Below, one piece after another: positions 22,141-57,634 of a stretch of DNA of 64,000 nucleotides. The DNA comes from Thraustochytrium sp. TN22 (lineage: Eukaryota > Sar > Bigyra > Thraustochytrida > Thraustochytriidae), in assembly GCA_013306675.1 (NCBI GenBank), contig JABLUY010000135.1:1-64000 (forward strand), in the 5' to 3' direction. A program made the translations under genes and the position numbers. The first letter of the stretch is position 1; each line of letters starts with the position of its first letter. The notes below the pieces were generated by a model. That model worked only from the letters and a program-made list of their open reading frames with translations. It did no database searches and was not told the origin of the DNA.

Positions 22141-23269
22141 AGACCTAGCTTCGTTTGATTCGTCCTAATCTCTGGCGCGTCAAACAGAGCGTGCGAGGAA
22201 GAGCGTACGAACAGAGCCCGTGCGCGTGCGAGCGAGCGTCAAGTGCACTTGGCGGGTCGTCGGCCACGGATTGAGCGCTCTCTGTGCTTCATCATTCCTC
22301 TCCTCTCTGCGTTGTGCTGGCCCTGGCGGGCCCTGGCTTGTGCTCTTCGCGATACCTCGCTTCGTCTCGTTCGTCCTGATTACCACATTGAACCTTGAGC
22401 TCATCGCTTCGACTCGTGTCGTCTCACCTTTGGCTTGCCCTTGCCTTGCCCTTGCCACGCCTCCCCGCCTCCTCGTCTCGCTGTCCGCCTCGCCCTCGCA
22501 CTGCCAGGGCTCCCTGTCATTCACCTCAGGCCGGCCGCCACGCGCCCCGGCCCCGGGGAGCGAAGGGAAAAATCCTAGTGAGTGGTCCTCGCCGAGCGCG
22601 GGCGGCGTGGCGCGCGCCTCCGAGGCCGAGTCGCGGCGCGGCGGCGCGGGGCGGCGTGCGCGAGGTGGGGTCGGCGCGCTCGCTCGGCGGCGGGCCCAAG
22701 AGCCCCCATTCAAGAAGAGGCACCGTGCCACCGTCGCGGTGGCGGCACGGCTGTTCATGATGATCCACGGTGTCGAGCTGGCTGCCACCGACGATCCGAT
22801 CCACGGCCAGCTTGAAGGCACCGGCAGGATCGCGAACAGCCCCGCACACACGCGAGCCGAGCCGAGCCGAGCCGAGCCGGCCGCGCCTGGCCGTCGCTGC
22901 CGTCGCGAAGGCGCCGGCGGTGCCGGCGCTGGCGGCGCTGCGCGGCTGCGCCAGAGCGCCAGAGCGCCTCGCGGAGTGGGCGGTAACGCGGGGAGCGGCG
23001 TTCCACTCGGGGTGTTCTCTGCGGCGCGCGCAGCTGGGGGGGGCGGCGCTGGTCGCGCGGGGGCGGCGGCGACGGGCGGCGCGCAGGCGCGGCGCAGGTA
23101 GGGGGGGGAGGAAATTAAGGCGCAGAGCGGCGCGCGGTCCGGTGCGGGCGCGCGGTGCTCCCGCGGGCGCGCGGCGGCCAGCGGACGCGGCGCGCGGGCA
23201 GTTGCGGGCGGCGCGCGGGCGCCCCGCGCGGGCGCAAGGCGGCTTTGGCGCGCGCAAGTGCGGCGTTGG

Positions 23270-23465
23270 CGCGGCGCAAGTGGCGCTCGCGGCAGCGCAA
23301 GTGGCGGCGCGGCGGCGCAAGTGGCGGCGCCGGCGGCGGCCGCGCTCGCGGGCGCGCAACTGGCGCGCGGCGCCGGGCGCACTTGCAGCGGCGGCGCGCA
23401 AGTGGCGGCGGCGCGCGCGCAAGTGGCGGCCGCGCGCGCGCAAGTGGCGCAAAGCGGCGCGCAAG
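23270..23465. repeat. Dispersed GCGCAAGTGGCG motif in C+G-only leader
   Basis: At least six copies of GCGCAAGTGGCG or one-base variants lie within 200 bp, embedded in sequence made almost only of C and G, about 330-520 bp before the SRPK start codon. Confidence 0.75.
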
Positions 23466-23792
23466 GGCCGCGGCCCTCTTGCGCGCGCAGGCGGCGGCGC
23501 TCGGGTCGCGCGGCGCGCAACGCCCGCGCGGCGCGGCGCGGGCGCGGCGCGCGCGGCAGAGCGCGGCAGAGCGCAGCGGCGCGGCAGGCGGCGGCGCGGC
23601 GGCGGCGCGGCGCGGCGCGGCGCGCGCGGCGCGGCGCAGGCCGGCGCAGCCGGCGGCCGGCGGCGGCCGGCGGCGCGGCGCGCGGCGGGCCCGCGGGCAT
23701 CAGGGCCGCGGCGGCGGGCGCGCGCCCGCGGCGCGCCCGCGGCGCGAGCCGCGGGCGGGCGGGCGCGGCGCGGTGCGTGGAAGGACGGCGAG

Positions 23793-26700
23793 ATGTCGTC
23801 CGCGCACGCCGCGGCCGCCTCCAGCGCGAAGCGCAAGAGCGCGCGGCGCAAGGGCGAGGAGGCGGCGCAGCCGCAGGTGCACGCGCTGCAGGAGCAGCAG
23901 CTGGCGCTGCAGCTGCAGCAGCAGGAGCTCGGGGCCAGAGCGGGGGGCGCGAAGCTGATGCAGACGCAGTCGCTGCCGCAGCCGCAGCCGCTCGGCACCA
24001 GCAACGGGAAGAAGCGGGCGAGCATGCGCAGGTCGAGCTCGGACGTGGGCGAGGTGCCCGTGGTGCAGCTGGCGTGGAGCACGCAGGACGGCGGCGCGGG
24101 CTCGCAATCTGCCCGCAAGGCGAGCGCGGGCACGCGCAGCGGCAAGCTGTCGCGGAGATCCACGACCGAGTCCGTGCTGGCCGCCGGCGCCGGCGCCGGC
24201 AAGGCGTCGACGGCGTCCGTGTCGAGCGCGCCGGCGACCGGCAAGGCTGGGACTGGCGGCGGCGGCGGCGGTGTCGGCAGCAGCAGCAGCAGCAGCAGCA
24301 GCAGCGTCGGCAGCGTCGGCAGCAGCAGCAGCAGCGCGCAGCGCAGCGCGCGCAAGAAGTCCTGGGCCTCGCGCGACGCGTCGGCGTCGGCGTCGGCGGG
24401 CGCCCAGGCCACGCCGGCTGCGCGCGGCAAGTCGACCTCGGCCACGCTCAAGAAGTTCCGCGAGCTCAACGACTCGACGCGCTCACTGCGCGGCGTGGCG
24501 CGCGGGGGCGACCCCAAGCCGGGCGACCTGCACGTCAGCCTCGACCTCGGCCGGGGCCTGGGCCTGGGCCTGGGCCCGGACGCTGCCGCCCCCTCGGCTG
24601 CCTCGGCCTCGTCGAAACTCCTCACGCGCAAGGAGAAGCGCGCCTCCATCTCCAGAGCCATACCCGTGGGCAGCCTCACCGCCGGGGCGCGCGGCGGCGT
24701 CAGCGGCGGCGCGGCGCGCGGCGGCGGCGGCAGCGGCGCGGCGCGCGGCGCGGCGCGCGGCGCACCCGCGCCCGCACCCGCGGCGGCGGCGCGCGGCGGC
24801 GCGGCGGGCGCACGCGGACAGGCCGGCGCCGTTGCCATGGCCGGCGTCCTGAGCGCCAACGCCAAGGCGGCGATGCTGGGCGACGGGCTCGGCGGCGGCA
24901 ACGGAAACGGCGGCAAGAGCGGCAAGGGCGGCGGCAAGGGCGAGGACGAGGAGGACGACGAGGAGGACCTGCTCGGCCCGCCCAGCGACGCGCAGGACGG
25001 CGACGAGACGGAGGACGGCGGCGAGGAGGACGACGAGGACGACGAGAGCGAGGACGTGGAGCACAGCGGCGGCGGCGGCGGCGGCCGCGGCAAGGCCGGC
25101 GGCCGCGGCAGCGCCAAGAAGAAGAGCAGCGGCGGCGATGGGGATGATGACGACGACGATGATGACGAGGACGACGAGGACGACGAGGACGGCGGCAGCA
25201 ACGAGGACTACTCCGACGACGAGGACGAGGGCAGCGAAGGGTACCGACAGGGAGGGTACCACAGGGTGGCGGTGGGCGACGTTTTCAACAAGCGGTTCGA
25301 GGTGGAGGAGAAGCTGGGCTGGGGCCACTTCTCGACGGTGTGGCTCGTCTTCGACCGCAAGGACGAGCGATACGCGGCCATGAAGGTGCAGAAGAGCGCG
25401 CGCTCTTACCGGGACGCGGCGCTGGACGAGATCAAGCTGCTCAAGACCATCGCCAACAAGGCGCGCGACCCCAAGACGGGCGCGCCACGGAGCGACGAGG
25501 TCTATGTGGTGCAGCTGCTCGACAGCTTCGAGCACGAGGGCCCGCACGGCTTGCACATGTGCATGGTTTTCGAGGTGCTCGGCGATAACTTGCTCACGCT
25601 CATCAAGCACTACAAGTACCAAGGCATCCCACTGCACCTGGTGCGCCAGATCACCTACCAGATGTGCGTGGCGCTGCACTTTCTGCACCAGGACTGCAAA
25701 ATTATCCACACCGACCTCAAGCCGGAGAATGTGCTCATTGCCGGCCTGCACGGCGAGACCGTGGACGACCTGCTGCCCTCGCTGCCCTCGCTTCGCGCCT
25801 ACGCGCGTGCCTGCGAGGCCAAGACGCTGGGCGACGGGAAGAACGCCAAGTACGCGGGCCGCGCGCGCGTCGTTAGTGGCAACGCCGCGGCCGCCGCGGC
25901 GCTCGCCTCGCGCACCGCGGCGCGGCGCGCTGCGCTTTCGGGTCAAATTGCAGAGGTCGAGCGCAAGTTGGCCGACAACCCCAAACCTGACGACAACCGC
26001 AAGTGGAAGAAGAAGCTCAAGCGGCTTGAGCGCGAGCGCGACGAGCTCGCGCAGCAGGCGGCGGCCGCGGCCGCCGCGGTCGCCGCAGAGTCCGGTACGG
26101 CGGGCGGAAGCGGTAGAACCGGCGCGGCCGACGAAGACGAATACGACGGTGACGGCGACGCGAACGGGCCAGCGCCGGGCGTTGCCCGCGTCGCGGCCCT
26201 ACACGCGGAGCTCGCCGCGCGCACCAGCACCGGCGCGCGTGCGCGGTCCGGCGGCCCCTTTACCGTCAAGGCGAACGGCGCCAGCAGCGGCGCGCAGGCG
26301 TTCGGCCAGCCTCCCGTGCCGCCGGGTGCACCGAGCTCGCTGCGGCGGCGGCTGCGGCGGCGGCCCTTGGACCCGAACGAGGACAACGGCGTGCGGCTTT
26401 GGTACGATCACCTCGTGGTGGGCAACTTCCAGGCCGCGCCGCCCACGCCGCGCCAGCTCAAGGCGCAGCGTCGACGCAGCTTCGTGCTGGTGCCCGAGGA
26501 TGAAGTAGTCGATCCGCCCCTGACAGACCTGCGCAAGCCGTGCACGGTGAGCTTTGCCGCGCCGTACAAGGCGGTGGAGCGCGCCTTTGGCAAGCCGTCC
26601 GACCTGCCGCGCGGCCTGTCCAGCCTGGAGATGGACGTTGGCCTGGACGAAGACGTGCGCGCGCTCGCCAAGTGGGACCTCGTGCTGTGCGAGAGCAGGT

Positions 26701-28241
26701 CCCGCAAGGTTGTAGAAAAGGGCCGCGTCATGCTGCAGGGCAGTGGCCAAATTAAGCACGACGTCTCGCAGCTCACCTACGGCACGCTGCGGCACGGGTT
26801 TGCCGTCATGGGCTGGCCCGAAGCCGACATGCAGTGGCAGCCGGACCGCCAGGCCTGCGAGTGGAACGTGCTGTGCGACGAGGACTGCCTGGAGTCCACG
26901 CTTGGGGCCTTGGAGAGCCTGAGCGAACTCGAGGTGACCTTCATCTGCTGCCCGCCGCTCCCAATCGACCTCATCACCGAGGAGAACCTGGCGGCGCGCA
27001 TCGCCGGCGACTACGCGACCGGCGCCACGGACCCGGGCGCGCTGCTGGGCAACCCGACGCTGATGCGCGTCATGGCCAAGCACTTCCGATCCAACCTGGG
27101 CGACGAGCGTCCCCGCGAGCTCGCCGGCCTCATCAAGGGCGTGCACGTGCGCGCGCCCACGCTGCGTCCGCTTCGCAACCGCCTCGTCAACTTTGGCGTT
27201 GCGCCGCCCTACGCCGCCTCGGCCATGGAGCAGCGCAAGATGGTGCTGGACCTGGCCGCCGAGATGACCGAGGCGGACGGCGACGCTTTGGACGACATTG
27301 ACACCGACAACGCCACGGCAATCGACGAGGACGACCTCGACGCGCCCGTGCCGTTGCACGTGACCACGAGCCTGCCGGTGGCGGGCGGCGCCTCTGGCGC
27401 CGAGGCTGCGCTGCGCAGCAAGAGCTACAAGCCGACGCCCAAGCAGCGCAGCGTCAGCATGCGTTCCACGCACTCGCACGGTGACCCGGGCAACGGGCTA
27501 GCGCCCAACACCTCGGCGCCGGCGAGCCCAGGATCGGGGCGGCGCACAGGACCCAAGTCCAAGGCCGGCGCGCGCCGTCCGCCCTCGGCGCTCGGCATCC
27601 GAGAGGTCGGCCTGCAGGCGCAGCGCCTTGACAGCAAGGAGCCCGCCGATATCGTTGTCAAGGTCGTCGACTTGGGCAACGCCTGCTGGACCGACGAGCA
27701 CTTTTCTGAGGACATCCAGACGCGCCAGTACCGCTCGCCCGAGGTCATCATTGGCGCCAACTATGACACTTCCGCCGACATTTGGTCGCTCGCCTGCGTT
27801 GTCTTTGAGCTCGCCACGGGCGACCTCCTCTTCGAGCCCAAGTCTGGCGGCAACTACGAGCGTGACGAGGACCACCTGGCGCTCATGATCGAGCTTATCG
27901 GCAACATGCCCAAGAATTTCGCGCTCTCCGGCAAGCACTCCAAGCGCTTCTTTAACAAGAAGGCGCAGCTGCGCCACATCCACAGTCTGAACATGTGGCC
28001 CATGGAAAAGGTCCTGCGCGACAAGTATGACTTTAGCAAGGAGTCCGCAGCCGAGTTCGCCTCTTTTCTGCGTGGCATGCTCGAGTTCAACCCCAAGAAG
28101 CGCTCCTCTGCGGCCGACTGCCTCGACCACCCCTGGCTGCAGAGCAACCTGCCGCGCTCCAGCCCGCGCCGCAAGGCGGCCTCCTCGGCGCCGGACAAGT
28201 CGGCCACCAAGAAGCTCTCCTCTGCTTCTTCGTCTTCTTGA
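23793..28241 (+). CDS. SRPK: SRPK-family protein kinase with a very long spacer insert
   Basis: 1482 aa from ATG 23793; no other ATG occurs in the roughly 340 upstream open codons. Residues 1-480 are disordered (Ser, Gly and Ala runs, and acidic blocks near 390-480). The kinase N-lobe starts at about 495: LGWGHFSTVW glycine loop, AAMKVQK lysine, and HTDLKPEN catalytic loop at about 638-646 (HTD in place of HRD is normal for SRPKs). The frame then enters an insert of about 630 residues before VVDLGNACW (DLG, about 1291), TRQYRSPEVIIG, SADIWSLACVVFELATGDLLFEP and a normal C-lobe. SRPKs phosphorylate SR splicing factors; in known members the spacer controls localisation. Here residues about 866-1146 of the insert look folded rather than disordered. 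The C-terminus is Ser/Lys-rich. Confidence 0.95.
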   Translation: MSSAHAAAASSAKRKSARRKGEEAAQPQVHALQEQQLALQLQQQELGARAGGAKLMQTQSLPQPQPLGTSNGKKRASMRRSSSDVGEVPVVQLAWSTQDGGAGSQSARKASAGTRSGKLSRRSTTESVLAAGAGAGKASTASVSSAPATGKAGTGGGGGGVGSSSSSSSSSVGSVGSSSSSAQRSARKKSWASRDASASASAGAQATPAARGKSTSATLKKFRELNDSTRSLRGVARGGDPKPGDLHVSLDLGRGLGLGLGPDAAAPSAASASSKLLTRKEKRASISRAIPVGSLTAGARGGVSGGAARGGGGSGAARGAARGAPAPAPAAAARGGAAGARGQAGAVAMAGVLSANAKAAMLGDGLGGGNGNGGKSGKGGGKGEDEEDDEEDLLGPPSDAQDGDETEDGGEEDDEDDESEDVEHSGGGGGGRGKAGGRGSAKKKSSGGDGDDDDDDDDEDDEDDEDGGSNEDYSDDEDEGSEGYRQGGYHRVAVGDVFNKRFEVEEKLGWGHFSTVWLVFDRKDERYAAMKVQKSARSYRDAALDEIKLLKTIANKARDPKTGAPRSDEVYVVQLLDSFEHEGPHGLHMCMVFEVLGDNLLTLIKHYKYQGIPLHLVRQITYQMCVALHFLHQDCKIIHTDLKPENVLIAGLHGETVDDLLPSLPSLRAYARACEAKTLGDGKNAKYAGRARVVSGNAAAAAALASRTAARRAALSGQIAEVERKLADNPKPDDNRKWKKKLKRLERERDELAQQAAAAAAAVAAESGTAGGSGRTGAADEDEYDGDGDANGPAPGVARVAALHAELAARTSTGARARSGGPFTVKANGASSGAQAFGQPPVPPGAPSSLRRRLRRRPLDPNEDNGVRLWYDHLVVGNFQAAPPTPRQLKAQRRRSFVLVPEDEVVDPPLTDLRKPCTVSFAAPYKAVERAFGKPSDLPRGLSSLEMDVGLDEDVRALAKWDLVLCESRSRKVVEKGRVMLQGSGQIKHDVSQLTYGTLRHGFAVMGWPEADMQWQPDRQACEWNVLCDEDCLESTLGALESLSELEVTFICCPPLPIDLITEENLAARIAGDYATGATDPGALLGNPTLMRVMAKHFRSNLGDERPRELAGLIKGVHVRAPTLRPLRNRLVNFGVAPPYAASAMEQRKMVLDLAAEMTEADGDALDDIDTDNATAIDEDDLDAPVPLHVTTSLPVAGGASGAEAALRSKSYKPTPKQRSVSMRSTHSHGDPGNGLAPNTSAPASPGSGRRTGPKSKAGARRPPSALGIREVGLQAQRLDSKEPADIVVKVVDLGNACWTDEHFSEDIQTRQYRSPEVIIGANYDTSADIWSLACVVFELATGDLLFEPKSGGNYERDEDHLALMIELIGNMPKNFALSGKHSKRFFNKKAQLRHIHSLNMWPMEKVLRDKYDFSKESAAEFASFLRGMLEFNPKKRSSAADCLDHPWLQSNLPRSSPRRKAASSAPDKSATKKLSSASSSS

Positions 28242-47343: not shown

Positions 47344-50300
47344 TCAGCCGGCGGCTGCGCTGCCTGAGAGCGCCATCCGCAGCCGCTGTTGGCCTAGGTT
47401 GGCCCAGGCACGGGGCCCGGTCCGAGGTCGGGCTCGCCGTGCGGCGAGAGGCTCTTCCGGGGCCGGGGTGCCTCCGTCCTCGACGCTGCTCGAGTCCCCG
47501 TCCTCGCCGTGCGTGGACGAGGCGTCGTCAGCGCTGTCGCCGCCGCGATGCACCTCACTGCCAGGACCGGCCTGCGCCATCTCGCCATCGCCGGTCTCGA
47601 CGCTGCCATTTTCCACGACGGGCGCGAGCGAGCGCATCTGCGCGTCGAGCAGGGCGCGGCGCTCTTTCTTCGCGGCACGTTTCCTGCGCCTGTGCGCGCG
47701 ATACGCCTTTCGGACCGCTTTGACGATGTCAGCGCGCTGATCCGCGTTGGAAACGCCAGCCCGCTGCAGCCTATGCTCCTGGAGGTCCCTACAGTCCGCG
47801 AGGCTGGTGATGCCGAGTCGCACGAGATTCCGGTACTGCGCCTGGGCGCCATGTGCGCTGAAAATATCCGCCAGCGTCTCTCTGCCGTCTTCGCCGACGG
47901 AGTCGGAGTCCGAGGCAGGGGTACCCGGCGCGCGCGAGCGGTGCGCGCCCTGGGGCTCGAAGGACCGGAAGCCCCTAATGATGCGTTCCCTCTCCGCATA
48001 GCTGGCCACCCCAACGCCCATCAGGTCGGCGTGAGAGAGTGCCTTGCATCGACGAACTGTGGCAAACTGGTCAAAGAAAAGACCAACGAGGTCCTCGCGC
48101 TTGACCTTGGCGAGGACCTTACGCATGACGGCTTGCTCATCGAGCTCAGTGAGCGAGAGCCGCGAGCTGGACCGCTTTCCGCGAACCGTGGCACGCAGCG
48201 GCTCGTTATGCAGAATACGCAGAAGGCGTTCGCGGCTGGAGTACATGTTGACGCCGCATGCGCGCAGGTCACTGTGAGTGGCGCGACGAAGGTGTGCAAC
48301 GCTCTGAAATTGCTGCGCCATGCCGTTGACATACCTGAGGTAATCTTGCCCGTATTGGCTGAGGGCGCGCTGCAGCAGGAGCTGCATGTCCTGCACGGAG
48401 ATGTTCTCCTGGTCATTGGGCTCTACGAGCGCGTCCGTTTCGCTCGTGGTTTCGAGCGAGGATAGGGAGTCATCCGAGGCCCAGTCGAGGTTGATGCCCG
48501 CGCGCTTTGCAGCTTGGCGACGAGCCTCCAGCCTGCTCTCCGCGAAGGGCTCGGCCGCGTCAAGGACCGCCTGGCGTATCTCGCGCTTGATGCCAGCGTT
48601 GTAAAGCTCCTCCTCGGAGCGACGAAGCGCTTGCTCGAGCGAGAAGCCTTGGCGTCGCACGTTCTCGACGCGGTCGCCCGCGCCCAGGTCTGTGAGCAAG
48701 GCTTGCAGAAAGCTATCCCACTCCTCTGGTGAAACGCAGCGCAGGAGGTCGCGCCCGTGCTTGTGCTTTTCGTGCTTGCGCAGCTTCTTACGCATCTTGC
48801 GGTCCTTCTTCTTGCGGTCCTTGGCCTCCTTCTTCATGCGCGCCTGCGTTGTCTTGGTGATATTCGGGTCAAAGGTGCGGAAGGCCTCCAACAGGCAGGC
48901 CCGCTCCGCGGCGTTTTCGATGCCCATGCGCTCCAGCTTCTTGCCCTTGAGCTTCTTGCACTTGGCCACGCTCCGATATCCTTTGCTCGCCAGGTTCGGG
49001 TACAGCCTGAGGAGGTTGACAGCGCGCAGGAGCTCCTTCAGCGTCGCAGTCTCAGGGTCGTCTGCACCGTCATCCGAGGAGGACACATCTTCGTCTTCCT
49101 CCTCGGCACCCGTCGACAGGCTCTCATCCGAGTCCTCCAGGCCTGGCTGCCGGAACGCGTCCAAGACGAGCGCCCGCGTTGCACTCGCGCCTTCGCCCAC
49201 AACGCCAAGCTCCTCCAGCGTGTCCGCCGTCAGCTTGCGGCACTTGCGCAGGGAGTCGCAACCGGAACCCACGAGCAGGTCTGCTATGTAGTTCAGGTCC
49301 AGCGCTGCCAGTACCTCGCGCACCTTGGCTGCCCGGGACTCACGGGCCGCCATGGGGTCCTCCGGGACAGCGCTGGTCGCCACGTCCTTCTCTTCCTCTC
49401 CCTCCTCCTCCTCCTCCTCCTCCTCCTCCTCCTCCTCCTCCTCCTCTTGCGCAACGTCGACCTCGTCATCCACCTCCACCCGCTCCTCGAGGCCCTCCAG
49501 GCCAGGCACCTGCGTGATTTGCGTGGTTTGCTGTTGCGCCGAGGCTCGCCGAAGGCGAAAGGGCCCCAAGACCGGCTCGCCGTCCGCGAGGAGCGTGATG
49601 ATACGGTCACGGTCCGCAAAGAACGGCACGCCCAAGTCGCGCAGGTCGGCATGCGTGAGCGTGCGACAGCGCTTGAGCGAACGAAAGTTGGCGTCCAGAA
49701 GCGCGTCCGCGTACTGCTCGAGGCCAGCGTCCAGCAACATCTCGCGAATGGCCACAGAATCATCGGCTCGGTCCTGCGAGGCGCGCCAGTACACGCGCAG
49801 CAGGTTCCGCATGATGCGGGTGGACCGGCGCTCGCGGATGCGCTCCTCGAGGCTGCGCAAGACGTCGGCGGCGACCGGCCGCGCGGCCGGATCCTGCGCC
49901 CAGAGCGCGCGTAGCATGTTGGCGACGCGAGGCTTCCAGGCCGTCTCAGCGCCGAGCGCCGGCCGTTCGCCGCGGTCCAGCACAGCCTCCTCGATGGCGT
50001 CGGGCAGTAGGCCCGCCCACGGCCGCGCACGCTCCTTGAGCTCCCAGCACAGCACTCCAAGCGCGTAGATATCCGAAGCCGGTGTCGCATCGGCCTCGGC
50101 GCTGGCCAGCAGCTCTGGCGCCAGGTACTCGGGCCGGCGCTGCTGCGGCCACACGGCCGGGAGTCCAACGTCGGAGACCCGTACGATGGAGTGCTCCGCG
50201 CCCTCCGCCATCATCACGGCATCCGGGTGCAGGTTGCGGTGAACGATGCCCTTGCTGTGCAGAAACTCGAGTGCGCGCGTCACGCCCTTGAGAATGGTTT

Positions 50301-51195
50301 CCTCGTGCTCCATCGAGAGCGTTACGGCGCGATCTGAGAGCACCTCGCGCAGGCTGCGGTCGAAGCGCTCCACAAGCAGCAGCATACGCACGTCCGGCAC
50401 GCACAGTCCGAATGCGCGCACCAGGTTGCTGTGCTGCAGGCCCTGCCAGCGCTCCACGCTGGTCAGCAGCTCCAGGTGCGCGGCGGCCTGCTCGGCGCGC
50501 GTCGGTCCTCGCACGCGGCGCACCACCACGGCGCGGCCTTGCCACTGCCCGCTCACCATGGCGCCCAGGTGGTCGCTGCGCAGCGTCTCCTGCAGCGTTA
50601 CCTCATCGCTGTGCACGCCGGCCACGCGCAGCTGGCACGCCTGCATGAGCATGGGCAGCACGCGCTCCACCTGTAGCTTGAACCTGGAGTCCTCGCGCGA
50701 CTGAAGGCTCGCCTCCATGTCGCGCCACCCGAGCCGCTCTGCCTCGGCAGCCAGCGCCTCCAGGTTGTCCTCCTCCAGCTCCGGCACCTCGCGCCGCACG
50801 TGCCGCAGCGCCGACACAAAGGCCTGCGCGTCGCGCTCGCCGTCCCGCGCGTGCTCGTCCTCCGCGTCAGCGGCCGCCTCCGCATCGGGCCCGGCCTCCC
50901 CTTCGCGCCGCACCGCCTCGCGCAGCGCCTCCTCCAGGCGCTCCAGCTTGGCCAGCTGCGTGCGCGCGGCCACGTACTGCACGAGCACGAGCGCCGAGTA
51001 CGCCCCCGCGCCGCCGCTCTGCGGCGCCGCCAGCGTGCCGGCAACCTGCAGCAGCGCGCGCAGGTCGTCCTCCTGCTCGGGGCCCGCGCCGCCGTCGCGC
51101 GCTGCGCGGGCGAGCGCCGCCAGCCGCGCCGCGCGCAGCCGCAGCGTCGCGGCGCGCTCCAGCGCGGCCGCCGCCGCGGCCGCCATCTCCGCCAT
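47344..51195 (-). CDS. Pseudokinase with an array of about seven SAM-like domains (paralogue A)
   Basis: 1283 aa from ATG 51195 (MAEMAAAAAAALERA). Residues 5-190 are helical. Residues about 198-465 are a TKL-like kinase fold (HSNLVRAFGLC, LEFLHSKGIVHRNLHPD, SDIYALGVLCWELKER, RPVAADVLRSLEE). It lacks the glycine loop, has R226 where the VAIK lysine should be, and N321 instead of the HRD aspartate; only DVG (D342) remains, so it is probably inactive. Then come seven helical modules of about 60 residues with the SAM pattern (LxxYxxxLxxxxFxSLxxCxxLTxxDLxxLGVxxxxxRxxIL): about 480-537, 623-683, 717-775, 825-885, 936-998, 1018-1078 and 1105-1165. They are separated by polyGlu, acidic and Lys-rich linkers. 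SAM domains often polymerise, so a scaffold role is likely. It is a tandem paralogue of the next upstream gene. Confidence 0.85.
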   Translation of the reverse strand: MAEMAAAAAAALERAATLRLRAARLAALARAARDGGAGPEQEDDLRALLQVAGTLAAPQSGGAGAYSALVLVQYVAARTQLAKLERLEEALREAVRREGEAGPDAEAAADAEDEHARDGERDAQAFVSALRHVRREVPELEEDNLEALAAEAERLGWRDMEASLQSREDSRFKLQVERVLPMLMQACQLRVAGVHSDEVTLQETLRSDHLGAMVSGQWQGRAVVVRRVRGPTRAEQAAAHLELLTSVERWQGLQHSNLVRAFGLCVPDVRMLLLVERFDRSLREVLSDRAVTLSMEHEETILKGVTRALEFLHSKGIVHRNLHPDAVMMAEGAEHSIVRVSDVGLPAVWPQQRRPEYLAPELLASAEADATPASDIYALGVLCWELKERARPWAGLLPDAIEEAVLDRGERPALGAETAWKPRVANMLRALWAQDPAARPVAADVLRSLEERIRERRSTRIMRNLLRVYWRASQDRADDSVAIREMLLDAGLEQYADALLDANFRSLKRCRTLTHADLRDLGVPFFADRDRIITLLADGEPVLGPFRLRRASAQQQTTQITQVPGLEGLEERVEVDDEVDVAQEEEEEEEEEEEEEEEGEEEKDVATSAVPEDPMAARESRAAKVREVLAALDLNYIADLLVGSGCDSLRKCRKLTADTLEELGVVGEGASATRALVLDAFRQPGLEDSDESLSTGAEEEDEDVSSSDDGADDPETATLKELLRAVNLLRLYPNLASKGYRSVAKCKKLKGKKLERMGIENAAERACLLEAFRTFDPNITKTTQARMKKEAKDRKKKDRKMRKKLRKHEKHKHGRDLLRCVSPEEWDSFLQALLTDLGAGDRVENVRRQGFSLEQALRRSEEELYNAGIKREIRQAVLDAAEPFAESRLEARRQAAKRAGINLDWASDDSLSSLETTSETDALVEPNDQENISVQDMQLLLQRALSQYGQDYLRYVNGMAQQFQSVAHLRRATHSDLRACGVNMYSSRERLLRILHNEPLRATVRGKRSSSRLSLTELDEQAVMRKVLAKVKREDLVGLFFDQFATVRRCKALSHADLMGVGVASYAERERIIRGFRSFEPQGAHRSRAPGTPASDSDSVGEDGRETLADIFSAHGAQAQYRNLVRLGITSLADCRDLQEHRLQRAGVSNADQRADIVKAVRKAYRAHRRRKRAAKKERRALLDAQMRSLAPVVENGSVETGDGEMAQAGPGSEVHRGGDSADDASSTHGEDGDSSSVEDGGTPAPEEPLAARRARPRTGPRAWANLGQQRLRMALSGSAAAG

Positions 51196-51267
51196 GCCGC
51201 CGCGCGCCGCCGCCGCGCCGTCGCGGGGGGGAGAGGGGGGGGGAGGGGGGGCGCGACGCGCCGCCGC

Positions 51268-51320
<53 letters not shown>

Positions 51321-51988
51321 CTGCCGAGCGCGCCGCGTTGCGTGGTTGCGGAGGCGGAGAACGCGACGCGCGCGGCGCGTGCAGCCAGGTAAGGTAGGTG
51401 AGGCGGTACGTGCCCGACGAGGGCGCCGGAAGCTCGGGCGACCCGGAGGAGGACGTCGCCGATGTCTCGGGCCGCTGGTCAGGGCGGCGGCTCGGTGGGC
51501 GCCTCGTGCTCGATTTCCTCGCTGACTTACGCTCTCGCTCAGCTGGTCTGAACGTCACAGATGTCGCCTGGCGCGCCGGAGGTGAAGGTGATGGGGGTCG
51601 AGTCGACGCCGCGCGCCAAGCCGTGCACTCACTGTCAGCTCAGCTTGGACGGTGCCGCGTGCTGCATTGCTCACTGACGCACGCGCACATGGCTGATCGA
51701 TGTCAGATGACGGAACGGTGGACTCGGGCGGCGTCATTTATGTGGCGGCCCGGACGTGGAGCGGACGAGTGGGCCGCTCGCCGCGGCCACGGTCCCGGCG
51801 TTGCTGGGCCGGCGGAGCAGAAGCGGATGGACGTGATGCGTAGCCAAGTCGCTCGCCATCGTATCGCGCCTCGCGCGCTCACGCGCGGCGACGACAAACG
51901 GAGACCATTGTTCAATCGAAAGATGAGTGCGTTTGCACAAGCAAAGATAAGAGCGCCGCGCGAGCCGCTCGCCTGAGAACATGCCGCG
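51196..51988. other. Intergenic region between the two pseudokinase paralogues
   Basis: About 790 bp; 5' flank of paralogue A and 3' flank of paralogue B. G tracts at about 51225-51250 lie 30-55 bp upstream of the paralogue A start, followed by a CCG-repeat run (about 51275-51320). No gene is seen. Confidence 0.5.
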
Positions 51989-54063
51989 TCAGCTGTAGGA
52001 GCTGTCAGTCGAGATGCTGCGCGAGCGGCGTCGGCGTCGGCGGCGAGGACGGTTGCGGCGAGGGGCGCTTCCGTCGCTGCTACTAGAATCTGGAGGCGCC
52101 GGCCGGAGGTCAACATTGCGGACGAAGAGGCGGTCGCCGGCGCTCGTCTCAACCTCGAAGCAGTTGCGCGGGAGGAGGGCACGCACAAAGAAGATCGCGT
52201 TCGGAGTCGAGCCCGATGGTGGGACGCGCATCTGCACGCGGTCGTTCAAAGCAAACTTGTGCGCCTTGCCGAGGCTCGCGAGCGGGCGCAACTTGGCACC
52301 CAGATGCGCCAGCGGGAGTGGGCGACGCTCAGGCTCTTCGAGGATGCGGCCCAGCACCGCCTGCGCCTGGTCTGACGGGACGCCGCACGACTGGAGGGCT
52401 CTCTCATTGGCGTTGCGGAGGCTCTCAACCGTGATGAAACCGGCATCGTAAAGGCGGTCAAAGTGTTGCTGCATGCTGATGGACCTGAGCACGTTCTTTA
52501 GTCGCTTCGCTTGCGGCGACTCCTTGCCCGAGGGCTTGTGGCTTGACAATCCCAGTCGACGGCGAATGCGCGCGGACAGCCCCGGCGCGCTGTCACTATC
52601 GGAGCTGCTGCCGGAGCTGCTGCTTCTGGCGCTGCTGCCAGAGCTGCTGCTGGCGCTGCTGCCAGAGCTGCTGCCAGAGCTGCTGCCAGAGCTGCTGCCA
52701 GAGCTGCTGCCGGACCTGTTTTCGCTCCCGTCAGCCCCGTTGCCCCCATCACTGTCGCTGTCGCTCGCCGCAGAAGCGTGTGAGCCGACACTGCGGCTGC
52801 TTGGGCGGCCGTGGGCGTTGCTGGCAGAAGCAGCGAGGCCACCATTCTGCTGAGCAGCATCATCTGGTCCGCTCCTGGTCTGTGCAGCTCCCACCGGGCC
52901 TTCTGAAACTGCGGCCGTGCCGAGCTCGACGTCGGGCGTCTCGGCGCCCCCCTCAGCATTGTCCGGCACAGCCTGGCCGTTCGCGACCTCCGGGTGATTC
53001 CCGTCGTCCTCGCCAAGCACGCTCCCTGGAGCGCCCGCCTCACCAACAGCCACGCCAGCAGCCGCGCTCGACCGGCGATGACCGGCGACGCGCTTGCGCG
53101 CCGCGGCCAGGGCCGCAGTGGCCCGTTGGCGGAGCGACTGGGTTGGTGGTTCTTCTCGAATGCGGTCCATGATGAGAACACGCTGGTCCTCGGAAAAGAT
53201 GCCGCAGCGCCGCATGTCCGAAGTTGTAAGACCTTGGCACGCCCGCACGGAGCCGACCCCGATGTCACAGAGCGCCTCGTGGTAGCGCTCCATGTTGATG
53301 CTTTCGAGAATCCGCCGCAGGCGTCGCGCGTCCCTGGTGGAGGCCAGGGCGCGCAGCTCCCTCGCCGCGAATGTGGAGGATCTGAGGGAGTCATGCGTGG
53401 TGTCAGAGTCACTGTTCGTCGCGCTGCTATCTGAGGATGAGCCAGGAGCACGAGAGCGCCGAGGCGAGCGCACACGCGCACGCCGGGCCTGCAAGCGTAA
53501 CGCGAAGCACGTGGCGCCCTCCATAATCGCTTCGGCATCATGGAGGATGGGGAGGATTGCATCGGAATGGTTTCTGGCGTCGCCGGACAGCTGTGACGCC
53601 AATGCACGCTCGCATTTTTCAAGGCTGTCGAATTTGTTTGCGAGGTCCCTCACCATACGAGGGGTGAGGTCAGTGACGGAAGCTGTCAGCTCCTGTATCA
53701 GGGCGCGCCGGACCTCGGGGGTGAAACGGGACCGACGGTGCAATCGTTCGGCGACCAGACCATGATTCGCATTCACCTGTGCGGCGTCGAGGCTCGCAAA
53801 CGCGCGAAGGATGGCGGCGCGATCCGTGAAGAGTACACCGGCCCTTTGGAGGTCTTCATCCGTCGCCGTCTTGCATACCTCCACCGTGCGAAAGTACGCC
53901 GCCAGCGGGGCCGCCCAGCGCTCAAGACCTGCGCCCGAGAGGGCCTCACGCAGACTCTCCGCGAGCAGAACGGCTGGATCGGAGGCATGGTTGTCCTTGT
54001 CTGCCGACTTTCGACTCGAGCGGCGGCCGCCACCGCGAGCCCCGTCGCTACCGCTACCGCTAC

Positions 54064-54097
<34 letters not shown>

Positions 54098-57000
54098 GCC
54101 GTCGCCGCCGCCGCGGCTCCTAAAAGTCCTCGAAGGGCCGTCTCGTCGCATCCTCGAAGGGCCGCCTCGTCGCATCCCCGTCAACTTCTTGGAGGTCTTT
54201 TCGACGCCCGCCTCCTTACGAAAGGCAGCGATGTGCCTCCTCCGCACCCGCTCATCGCGCAATGCACGACAAGCCTTGAGGATTTTAAATCGCGCCGCAC
54301 GAGGAACGCTAGCTGCTTGGAGCTCGACGTGAGAGGAGTTCAGGGCCTTTGCTAGCGTGAAGCCCGCTCTCAGCGCGGGCTGGAGGCGGTCTTGCTCTCC
54401 GCAGTCTGCGAAGATAGCCCGCAGGGCTCGCTCCTCGCGCGGGGAGACCAGATTAGAGCCGGCGGCCCTGCGCGTACGCCCCGGCGAGCCTGACGAGCCC
54501 GAGGAATGCGAGGAGGAAGTGCTCGAAAACCTTCGTGGTCGGCGTCGGCCCTGCCCCCCTCGCCTTCTTGGCGCATCGCTCCCACTGCTACCGCTCCCGC
54601 CGCGGCTCCTGCTCCTGCTGCCCTCGCCGCTTGCGTCGCCCTCGCCACTGCCCCGCCGCCGAGACGGACGCTCTGCCATGAGTCGTCTTGCACCCTCGTG
54701 GGACCCCGCGAGTAGAATGAGCTGCCTTGCGCCCGTGGACACGCCGATTTGGGTCAGGAGCCTCGCCTGCTCAGCTGGGGTGTTCTCCAAGGAGAAGCCC
54801 ACCTGCAGAGCCTCTGGCAGCTTCTGAGCAACGCCTGCGAAAGCAAAGACAGCTTCAAGAACGCTCTCCTGCGGCGTCGGTGCGACGCTTGTGGGCTGGG
54901 CCGTGGTCCGTGGCCCAGATGAGTTCGACGCCGTCCGGCTTGGGCGCTGCCGGCGGGTCCCGCCAGACAACGAGGCGTCCGAAGAGGAGGACGAAGATGA
55001 CGAGGACGAGGAGGACGGCTCGTCCGTCAAGCTCCCGTCAAACTTGTTGCACTCCGTGAGGATGCCGAAGCGCTGGCTCAGAGGTACCATGGCCTTTCTC
55101 AGCTCGACGTGCGAGTTCTGCTTGCCGAGCGCAATCGTGAAGCCTGCCTTCATCGCTGGCTGCAGAAACTCCGTGGCGCGGGCCTTGTTGAAGATCCTCC
55201 TGAGTACTTCTTGTTCCTTTTGGCCAGGGACCTTGCGCGTCTTTTTCGGATGCAAAGCTTTCGCCTTGGCGCTGGCGCTGGAGCGCGCTGATGTTCTACC
55301 TGTACGAGAGCGAGAGCGAGAGCGAGAGCGAGAGCGAGAGCGATGCGGGTTCCTCCTGTCGACGTGCTCCTGTCCTGCGTCTGTCCGCTTCGCGTCTGCG
55401 TCTGAAGACGTTTCGGAGCCGGCCACCTCATCGTCAGACTCTGCAGCATGGTCGTCAGAACCAGCGGCATCATCGTCAGATTCTGTGTCGTCGTCGACAG
55501 AATCGGCGGCATCATCGTCGTAACCAGCGACTTCTTCATCGTCACTGCTCGGCATGTCACCGTCGCCGCTGGTCCAGGCCTGACAGGCCCTGAGAATTTG
55601 GAAGCGGCGTGCCGCGGAGATGCCGGCGTTGCGCAGCTCATCCATCGAGCCTGACCTGCCCGCTTCAAGGCTGAAGCCGCAGTGCAATGCATCCTCCAAC
55701 TTGTCCTGCACGCCAGCGCCTGCGAAGATGGCGACCAGAGCCACATTTGCTTGCGCGTGGAGGCTGCCCGCCATGGTCGCGCCTTCTTGTACCTCCTCCG
55801 CATCATCGCTCTCGTCCTCTGCCGCCGTCCGCATTTCTCCAACCTCATCTTCCACTTGCTCCTCCTCGCCCGCCTCTGATTCTTCCTCTTTTTCTCCGTC
55901 CCCGTCTCCATCGTGATCGTCGTCGTCGTCGTCGTCGTCGTCGTTTGGGTCATCATTTTTCGGTAGCAGGTCATCCTCACCCTCGTCCTTCTCCTCTGCT
56001 GTTGGCGCAGACGAGACCTGGGCTTTGACCGCTTTTCCTCTTGGTGCAGCGGCGTTGTCTAAATCATCATCAGAACCGTGACGAAGATCGTCGACGTCGT
56101 TGACAGCGGGCGCGGCTCGTGGGTGCGAGCGCCGCAGCATGAGGAGCGTCTTCATGACCCGCGTGGAGCGGCGGTCACGAACGCGCGTGCTGATGGCGGC
56201 CAGCAGCTTGGAGGCCGTCGGGCGGATGCTCGCATCAGCCGCCCAGGCATCCTGCACGAGCTTGCGCAGCTTGGTGTCCCATACGCGCACATCCGACGTC
56301 ATGGGCGGGCGGCCGCCGGCCAGCACGCGCGACACAATGTCGGGGCCCGCCAGATCGCTGGACCAGGGCGCGCGTCGTTCCTTGACGGCAAAGCAGAGGA
56401 TGGCAAAAGCGAAAACGTCGGAGGCGCGCGACCATAGCGGCGGGCCCTCGGGCCCCAGGAGCTCCGGCGCCGCGTAGGAGGCGGCCTCGGTGCTTTCGTG
56501 CAGCGAGGCCGGCGGCGCGCCGAGGTCCGTGAGCTTGACGTTGGAGCGCAAGTGGCGCGCCAGGAGAACGCTGGCAGGGCTCAGGTTGCGGTGCACAATC
56601 CCGAGGGTGTGGAGATGGGCGAGCGCGCGCAGGACGCCCTTGAGAATGGTGGCCTCCTCGTCAGCAGTGAGCGCCGGAGCCTCGGGGTCCAGGACATCGC
56701 TCAGGCTGAGCTCGCAGAGCTCCACGACGAGCTGCACCCGCGTGTCCAGCGCAACGGAGAGGCCAAGCACCCGGACCACGTTGCGGTGGCGCACGAGGTC
56801 CCACTCGCGAATGCAGCGCAGGACGGTGCGGCCGTCGGCCGCGTCCACGTCGCGGATCACGGCGACGGCCTGGCCGCGCCATTCAGCCGCCACGGCGACG
56901 CCAAAGCGGCCGCTATAGAGAGTTTCCTCGCCGACCACAAGGTCGCAGGGCGGTATGGAGGCGAGAGAGCGCTGTGCGTCCGCGCCGGCGCGCGTCGCCA

Positions 57001-57634
57001 TGGTGCGGAGGATCGCTGCGGCGGCCGTGCCCTTGCGGCCCTCGGCCGTGGCACTCTCGTCGGTGAGCGCCGCGCAAATTTGCGCGGCGGTCGCTGCCTC
57101 GAGCGCACTCTGCAGAGCCTCGAGCTCCTCATCGGCCGACCGGGCGCCAGGATGCGCCAGCCGGGCGCGGACTATTTCGCGCAAGTCGCCCAGGTCATCT
57201 TCAAGGTCGGTGTCCTCGTCCTCGTCCTCATCCTCATCCGCGTCCTGGTCCTGGTCCTGGTCCTGGTCCTGGTCCTGGTCGGCCTCGTCCTCGTCCTCGG
57301 CCTCGGACGCGGCGCCCGCCAGCCAGTTGAGCGCGGCCGTGACGCTGCGCAGTGCGTCTGCCTCCTCGCAGGCTGCCACGAAGCGCGCGACGCAGATCTC
57401 CTCGTCGCCGGCCTCTCCCTGGCGCAGCTCGTCGAGACGTCGCACGACGTCGAGCGCCGCGCGCGCGCGCTGCTCCACCGCCGTGCGGGTCGACGCGGCC
57501 ACTTGTCGCGCGCGCAGCTTGCTGGCAGCCGCCTCTGCAGCCTTGGCCAGCGCGGCGCGCCGCCGCGGCAGCACCTGCAGCGCGGCGGCCTCGTCGCCGA
57601 GCGTCTCCAGCAGCGCGTCCACGGTGCCGTCCAT
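51989..57634 (-). CDS. Large pseudokinase with helical GF-type and SAM-like modules and an SR-rich tail (paralogue B)
   Basis: 1881 aa from ATG 57634 (MDGTVDALLETLGDEAA). Residues 1-200 are helical, with an Asp-Gln repeat (about 119-131). Residues about 230-485 are a pseudokinase: no glycine loop, I260 at the VAIK lysine position, N350 in HRN, but DLG (D370) kept. It ends RVRDRRSTRVMKTLL, matching RIRERRSTRIMRNLL in paralogue A. Four related modules follow (about 633-690, 808-865, 924-980, 1069-1128) with the pattern IFxxxGxxxxLxxALxxGFSLxxxxxxxxELxxxxVxxxxRFxIL. Then come SAM-like modules (about 1224-1283, weak 1308-1370, 1437-1495, 1707-1767). Linkers are acidic, poly-Ser or Arg-Ser repeats (RSRSRSRSRSRS near 766-777). 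Residues about 1780-1845 could be a small beta-barrel (KFALNDRVQMRVPP), followed by an Arg-rich tail. Probably a nuclear scaffold; function unknown. Confidence 0.85.

Follow-up and report, generated by a model that had tools for sequence, protein, structure and literature searches.

Tandem pseudokinase genes with SAM-module arrays in Thraustochytrium sp. TN22 and their relatives across the genome

Two neighbouring minus-strand genes, here called A and B, lie in the window analysed (the first 64,000 nucleotides of contig JABLUY010000135.1 of Thraustochytrium sp. TN22, GenBank assembly GCA_013306675.1) and encode large proteins in which a tyrosine kinase-like (TKL) pseudokinase is followed by an array of sterile alpha motif (SAM) modules. 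We propose, with moderate confidence, that A and B are members of a family of large scaffolds in which a kinase fold serving for docking or as a switch is joined to a multivalent SAM platform. The part that appears to be new is the long SAM array behind a pseudokinase, not the combination of a pseudokinase with SAM itself.

Gene A (47344..51195) encodes a protein of 1283 residues with an N-terminal region, the pseudokinase, an RRSTR motif and seven SAM modules, and gene B (51989..57634) one of 1881 residues with the same order of domains and, in addition, a small C-terminal domain (lengths counted from the first ATG to the stop). These coordinates, the strand and both lengths had been given in a preliminary description of this DNA and agreed with a check of the open reading frames (ORFs), and the order it named, an N-terminus, a TKL-type pseudokinase and a SAM array, was seen in both proteins. 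The fraction of GC at third codon positions was 0.83 in A and 0.75 in B. Pfam searches placed a kinase domain in each protein (A, PF07714, E-value 1.1e-25; B, PF00069, 4.2e-20) as well as SAM_1 (A, 2.6e-21; B, 5.5e-8), and the two kinase domains are 39% identical. A structure model of A residues 190-1264 from the single sequence had a mean pLDDT (predicted local distance difference test) of 43.5 and was unusable.

The family was found through searches of the genome (37.9 Mb, 453 contigs) with the kinases of B and of C277a, which gave 111 and 71 matches, together with domain mapping of the loci. At least seven pseudokinase-SAM genes are present: A and B, four genes in tandem on C277 (C277a to C277d, with 6, 5, 2 and 11 SAM modules) and one gene on C60 with 12 modules; seven is a lower bound because part of the kinase and SAM matches was inspected (genome searches with SAM_1 and SAM_2 gave 41 and 30 matches). 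The number of SAM modules per pseudokinase protein is 2 to 12, and 5 to 12 in six of the seven; the open frames span 784 to 1943 residues from stop to stop, and tandem clusters occur on C39 (A and B) and C277. Two of the 11 modules of C277d precede the kinase, and its ORF, which holds two N-terminal-like regions, may derive from two fused genes. An ORF of 2633 residues on C2 (C2:24279-32177, minus strand, mostly in locus L009) carries 20 SAM modules without a kinase; it matches C277d at 90% amino-acid identity over the last seven modules and the C-terminus of each. It is adjoined by an ORF with two SAM-like modules (C2:33983-40000, minus strand, L010). Another kinase, on C240, has a single SAM match under the cut-off (22.3 vs 23 bits).

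By sequence, the kinase domains of this family are TKL-type pseudokinases. In A the domain covers residues 200-449 (49849..50598, from PF07714 and alignment), with Arg in place of the VAIK Lys, HRN in place of HRD (50233-50241) and DVG in place of DFG; in B it covers residues 236-479 (56198..56929, from PF00069 and alignment), with Ile for the VAIK Lys, HRN for HRD (56585-56593) and DLG for DFG. The best PDB sequence matches of the A kinase were RIPK1 (E-value 9e-17), CTR1 and MLK4, which are TKLs. Both A and B have lost the VAIK Lys and HRD Asp and retain the DFG Asp, and the earlier label of a TKL-like pseudokinase is supported by sequence. Catalytic motifs were read by eye in an alignment of 28 kinases. 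None of the seven SAM proteins has the VAIK Lys (Arg in A, C60 and C277c; Ile in B; Gln in C277b), a recognisable beta3 being missing from the beta1-beta3 region of C277a and C277d, and none has the HRD Asp (HRN in five, HHN in C277d, HRH in C277c). Four of the seven retain the DFG Asp, all seven the alphaF Asp and the late Arg, and six the APE Glu, C277b lacking the APE stretch.

In a tree of the kinase domains, drawn with a midpoint root for display only, the seven SAM proteins formed one clade (support 100/99) that includes both A and B, in keeping with their description as adjacent tandem paralogues. Nine TKL kinases with C-terminal ARM repeats were found in the same genome, and eight of them adjoined the SAM clade (91/84), with C80 outside on a long branch. 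All three catalytic motifs are intact in four of these ARM kinases (C199a, C415, C300 and C248) and not in the other five. The RRS[ST]R motif follows the kinase in all seven SAM proteins (residues 456-460, 49816..49830, in A; residues 488-492, 56159..56173, in B) and stands at the same place in two of the nine ARM kinases (C199a and C18), while RRST or RRSS follows the kinase in C199a, C18, C415 and C300. The string occurred in 27 of 885 ORFs examined, many of them unrelated, so it is no signature on its own. Degenerate ARM-repeat TKL kinases were located at L019 2438-5323 and 5881-8721, L024 1941-6047 and L023 3594-6467; catalytic loss thus happened outside the SAM group as well.

The SAM modules of A and B were scored with a non-circular profile built from 56 modules of six other family proteins, with 400 windowed shuffles as control (best shuffle score 4.5 bits). 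All seven modules of A were recovered, at 26.4 to 68.2 bits: module 1 (residues 475-534, 49594..49773, 68.2 bits, also a PF00536 match in the genome search), module 2 (615-680, 49156..49353, 26.4 bits), module 3 (712-771, 48883..49062, 44.6 bits), module 4, of subtype II (830-880, 48556..48708, 26.4 bits), module 5 (934-993, 48217..48396, 35.7 bits), module 6 (1019-1074, 47974..48141, 48.8 bits) and module 7 (1100-1160, 47716..47898, 38.8 bits). In B, six of eight were recovered at 32.0 to 43.9 bits, namely modules 1 (residues 625-683, 55586..55762, 37.3 bits), 2 (801-861, 55052..55234, 32.0 bits) and 4 (1062-1121, 54272..54451, 43.9 bits), all of subtype II, and modules 5 (1218-1278, 53801..53983, 34.9 bits), 7 (1429-1491, 53162..53350, 39.4 bits) and 8 (1702-1763, 52346..52531, 36.3 bits, with a Pfam SAM_EPH match at 2.8e-7). 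Module 3 of B, of subtype II (916-976, 54707..54889), is borderline at 5.8 bits, and putative module 6 (1299-1361, 53552..53740) is unsupported at -0.8 bits. The seven or eight modules first proposed therefore stand as seven in A, but as six to seven rather than eight in B.

As whole proteins, A and B exceeded the Pfam SAM cut-off of 23 bits (76.2 and 33.5 bits, PF00536/PF07647). Pfam delimited three separate SAM_1 stretches in A and two in B, and the genome-wide searches listed one module of the window for SAM_1 and none for SAM_2, so most of these modules, taken one by one, appear to have diverged too far for Pfam. Searched against PDB sequences with an E-value limit of 0.1, a profile made from the 15 window modules gave 28 matches (lowest E-value 5e-8), almost all being SAM proteins by name, with UvrC (0.044) the clear exception; the best matches were SAM domains of Eph, SHIP2, ARAP and SAMD5, which are protein-binding. 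The AlphaFold2 model of B module 1, a divergent one, had a pLDDT of 96.3 and five helices in a SAM-like fold. With these results the SAM identity assigned at the outset holds for most modules. The modules are joined by low-complexity linkers, fall into two subtypes and are for the most part only distantly alike, which would make a set of distinct docking modules more likely than a homogeneous self-polymerising repeat.

The order of modules was compared in 21 protein pairs against shuffles, leaving out C277c with its two modules. Among the proteins of C2, C277 and C60, seven of ten pairs shared array order at p<0.05, and after Bonferroni correction two of the 21 pairs did (C2-C277d and C277d-C277a). 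Conserved module order as a family-wide rule was rejected, since 7 of 21 pairs reached p<0.05 and none of these included A or B.

Selection was estimated as the ratio of nonsynonymous to synonymous substitution rates (dN/dS), with bootstrapping, for four segments, three from the pair C277a-C277d and one from C277d-C2. Between C277a and C277d the pseudokinase had a dN/dS of 0.22 (95% interval 0.15-0.31; 0.24 for a slightly longer kinase stretch), the N-terminus 0.37 (0.25-0.52) and two SAM modules 0.34 (0.22-0.52), and the array common to C277d and C2 had 0.41 (0.29-0.57). The pseudokinase is therefore under purifying selection in one pair, C277a-C277d. Loss of catalytic residues, with fold residues kept and purifying selection in the pair tested, is what a domain used for docking or switching would be expected to show.

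We suggest that the pseudokinase would act as such a domain, plausibly paired with, or modified by, active ARM-kinase cousins in the way that KSR pairs with RAF, and that access to the SAM array would depend on the state of this domain. The array itself may, by analogy, be a multivalent platform that recruits several SAM proteins, assembles oligomers, or both, and the Ser-rich, basic or acidic linkers could serve as phosphorylation-tunable spacers. Active ARM kinases are, on the same analogy, candidate partners of the pseudokinases. Polymerisation through SAM, ligand sensing by the pseudokinase and assembly driven by a signal, as put forward in the preliminary description, may also have a part in this scheme. 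A more speculative extension, which we regard as rather doubtful, is that the TKL-ARM lineage once gave rise to a catalysis-lost branch of 'assembly strips', whose long arrays of non-identical SAM modules would dock different partners and so fix how large signalling assemblies are ordered and in what stoichiometry, under a pseudokinase switch paired with active cousins. Arrays of 5 to 12 SAM modules in six dead-kinase proteins, with the 20-SAM ORF, would provide natural material for testing how multivalent SAM platforms form, and the neighbouring, partly active ARM-repeat kinases present in this genome would allow the transition from enzyme to scaffold to be traced.

Several results weigh against the scaffold proposal. 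Array order common to A or B and the other proteins beyond that of shuffles was found in none of 11 pairs, and this, together with the diverse and often basic modules, suggests that the array may not be one ordered platform. In C2 the ORF that holds the array has no kinase, and C277c has just two SAM modules. The dN/dS estimates come from pairs without A or B, and with five of the nine ARM kinases degenerate too, catalytic loss extends beyond the SAM proteins.

Among the closest known proteins is Plasmodium pTKL, a TKL pseudokinase with SAM and an Asn at the catalytic position, which binds ATP, is inactive and is a proposed scaffold (PMC6544628). It resembles the present family in its TKL pseudokinase, in Asn for the catalytic Asp, in SAM within the same protein and in the proposed scaffold role; compared by domain content, it differs in having one SAM domain, against 5 to 12 in six of the seven family proteins (two in C277c). 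The PP1-binding RVxF motifs described in that account belong to pTKL. EphB6 and EphA10 likewise carry a C-terminal SAM domain behind a pseudokinase (PMC7586955) but have just one SAM and belong to the receptor tyrosine kinases, whereas A and B are TKL-type and a receptor ectodomain was not found by Pfam in either. In the KSR system, KSR dimerisation activates RAF, and CNK-HYP, bound partly via SAM domains, stabilises the KSR-MEK complex (PMC11257983); here too a pseudokinase partners a TKL kinase and the supporting complex uses a SAM-SAM contact, but the SAM domains sit on separate proteins (CNK and HYP, with CC-SAM in KSR) and, in the part of that account available, form no array. Liprins, CASKINs, SARM1, ANKS1 and SASH1 have several SAM domains per protein, in tandem in most, but no more than three in the set of one review (liprins), and the available portion of the review mentions no pseudokinase among them (PMC10252437). 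The Phytophthora infestans kinome has SAM in two kinase proteins (families STE and TKL) and 19 inactive TKLs, and no SAM array was seen in the accessible part of its account (PMC3019232). The ARM kinases of the same genome are alike in that, for eight of the nine, the kinase domain adjoins the SAM family in the tree, and differ in having ARM repeats in place of SAM and intact catalytic motifs in four. Literature searches, with subscription journals largely outside their reach, found no description of a pseudokinase-SAM-array family among the papers listed. Of the novelty first claimed, then, the pairing of a pseudokinase with SAM was already known from pTKL and EphB6/EphA10, while the long array behind a pseudokinase was not found described.

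The strongest alternative, which we nevertheless consider unlikely, is that the main ligand of the arrays is nucleic acid or acidic lipid, not other SAM domains, and that they form an RNA or membrane platform, since binding of both by SAM domains is stated in PMC10252437. Module net charge ranges from -5.5 to +8.3 per 60 residues and linker charge from -26 to +22. Basic modules of +4 to +8 per 60 residues are frequent (A3 +7.4, A5 +5.2, many modules of C2 and C277d +5 to +8), and linkers vary from acidic to Ser-rich and basic; the Ser-rich basic linkers, found in C2 and C277d, and the C-terminal domain would suit such a platform. However, several others carry no net charge or a negative one (A1 -2.1, C277b module 2 -5.3), and the module profile fits the protein-binding SAM domains of Eph, SHIP2, ARAP and SAMD5 best. 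A simple model of acidic linkers and basic modules was rejected, as both charges span negative to positive, and with such mixtures no single electrostatic model fits.

It is improbable, in our judgement, that these are expanding repeat genes under weak constraint, produced by tandem duplication and lacking a dedicated assembly role. The tandem clusters on C39 and C277, the 90% amino-acid identity of the C277d and C2 array segments and the variation in module number from 2 to 12 would fit such an origin, but the dN/dS values of 0.22-0.41 in the four segments, with upper limits of 0.31-0.57, and the long open frames of 784 to 1943 residues speak against it.

The N-terminal region spans residues 1-190 in A (50626..51195), where it is probably helical, and residues 1-230 in B (56945..57634), where it has an acidic repeat. 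A helical N-terminus is plausible in the family, whose N-termini are weakly alike in alignment; in Pfam searches no family reached its cut-off. Comparison of the SAM-family with the ARM-kinase N-termini by hhalign gave a probability of 84%, and plain profile searches between the two groups were weak (two of seven ARM rows at E<0.01; in reverse, none of eight SAM rows). MLKL is a molecular switch (PMC8141879), and a similar arrangement could be imagined here, in which the N-terminus would be a regulated effector, a four-helix bundle that the pseudokinase restrains and the SAM array clusters, in a cell-death or membrane-acting role. The hhalign result, the rank of RIPK1 as best PDB match of the A kinase and a profile of six ARM-kinase N-termini whose alignment to two MLKL entries was co-linear and began at residue 1 point that way, but the E-values of 0.52 and 0.66 are not significant, TRAF2 outscored MLKL (0.06), and with the weak profile searches and the lack of a Pfam family at cut-off we hold this reading to be very unlikely. 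That the kinases are unusual yet active, with migrated residues standing in for the lost Lys and Asp, is least credible of all. The DFG Asp kept in four of seven and an Arg beside the VAIK position in B would fit it, but the HRD Asp and VAIK Lys are lost in all seven, a recognisable beta1-beta3 region is missing in C277a and C277d and the APE stretch in C277b, and the HRN-type pseudokinase pTKL is inactive (PMC6544628).

The C-terminal region of B, of about 56 residues (1793-1848, 52091..52258), aligned with the C-termini of C277a, C277b and C277d at 8-21% identity only, and the C2 C-terminus carries the C277d form of this small domain; a search of the domain against PDB sequences gave no match at E-values up to 1. 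C277a, C277d and C2 end alike after it, with a basic run and then FG[IL]F.

Prokaryote genomes, scanned with five of the seven pseudokinases aligned as the query, gave at least 249 stretches that encode a relative, the best 80 being 24-38% identical, and no SAM module was detected near these at an E-value of 0.01 in 4112 ORF segments of the best 80 loci. A pattern search of viral contigs gave 27 stretches, none of which was a relative. Elsewhere in the window, an ORF of 1823 residues (22770-28241, plus strand) has kinase matches in two stretches that lie apart (844-991 and 1629-1790), suggestive of a kinase domain interrupted by a large insertion. Further members of this kinase group have WD40 repeats, SRCR domains, or ARM-like repeats with a RING finger (L021 3736-6621, plus strand; L025 2285-6184, minus; L026 1872-7040, minus), as if their C-terminal modules had been exchanged repeatedly.
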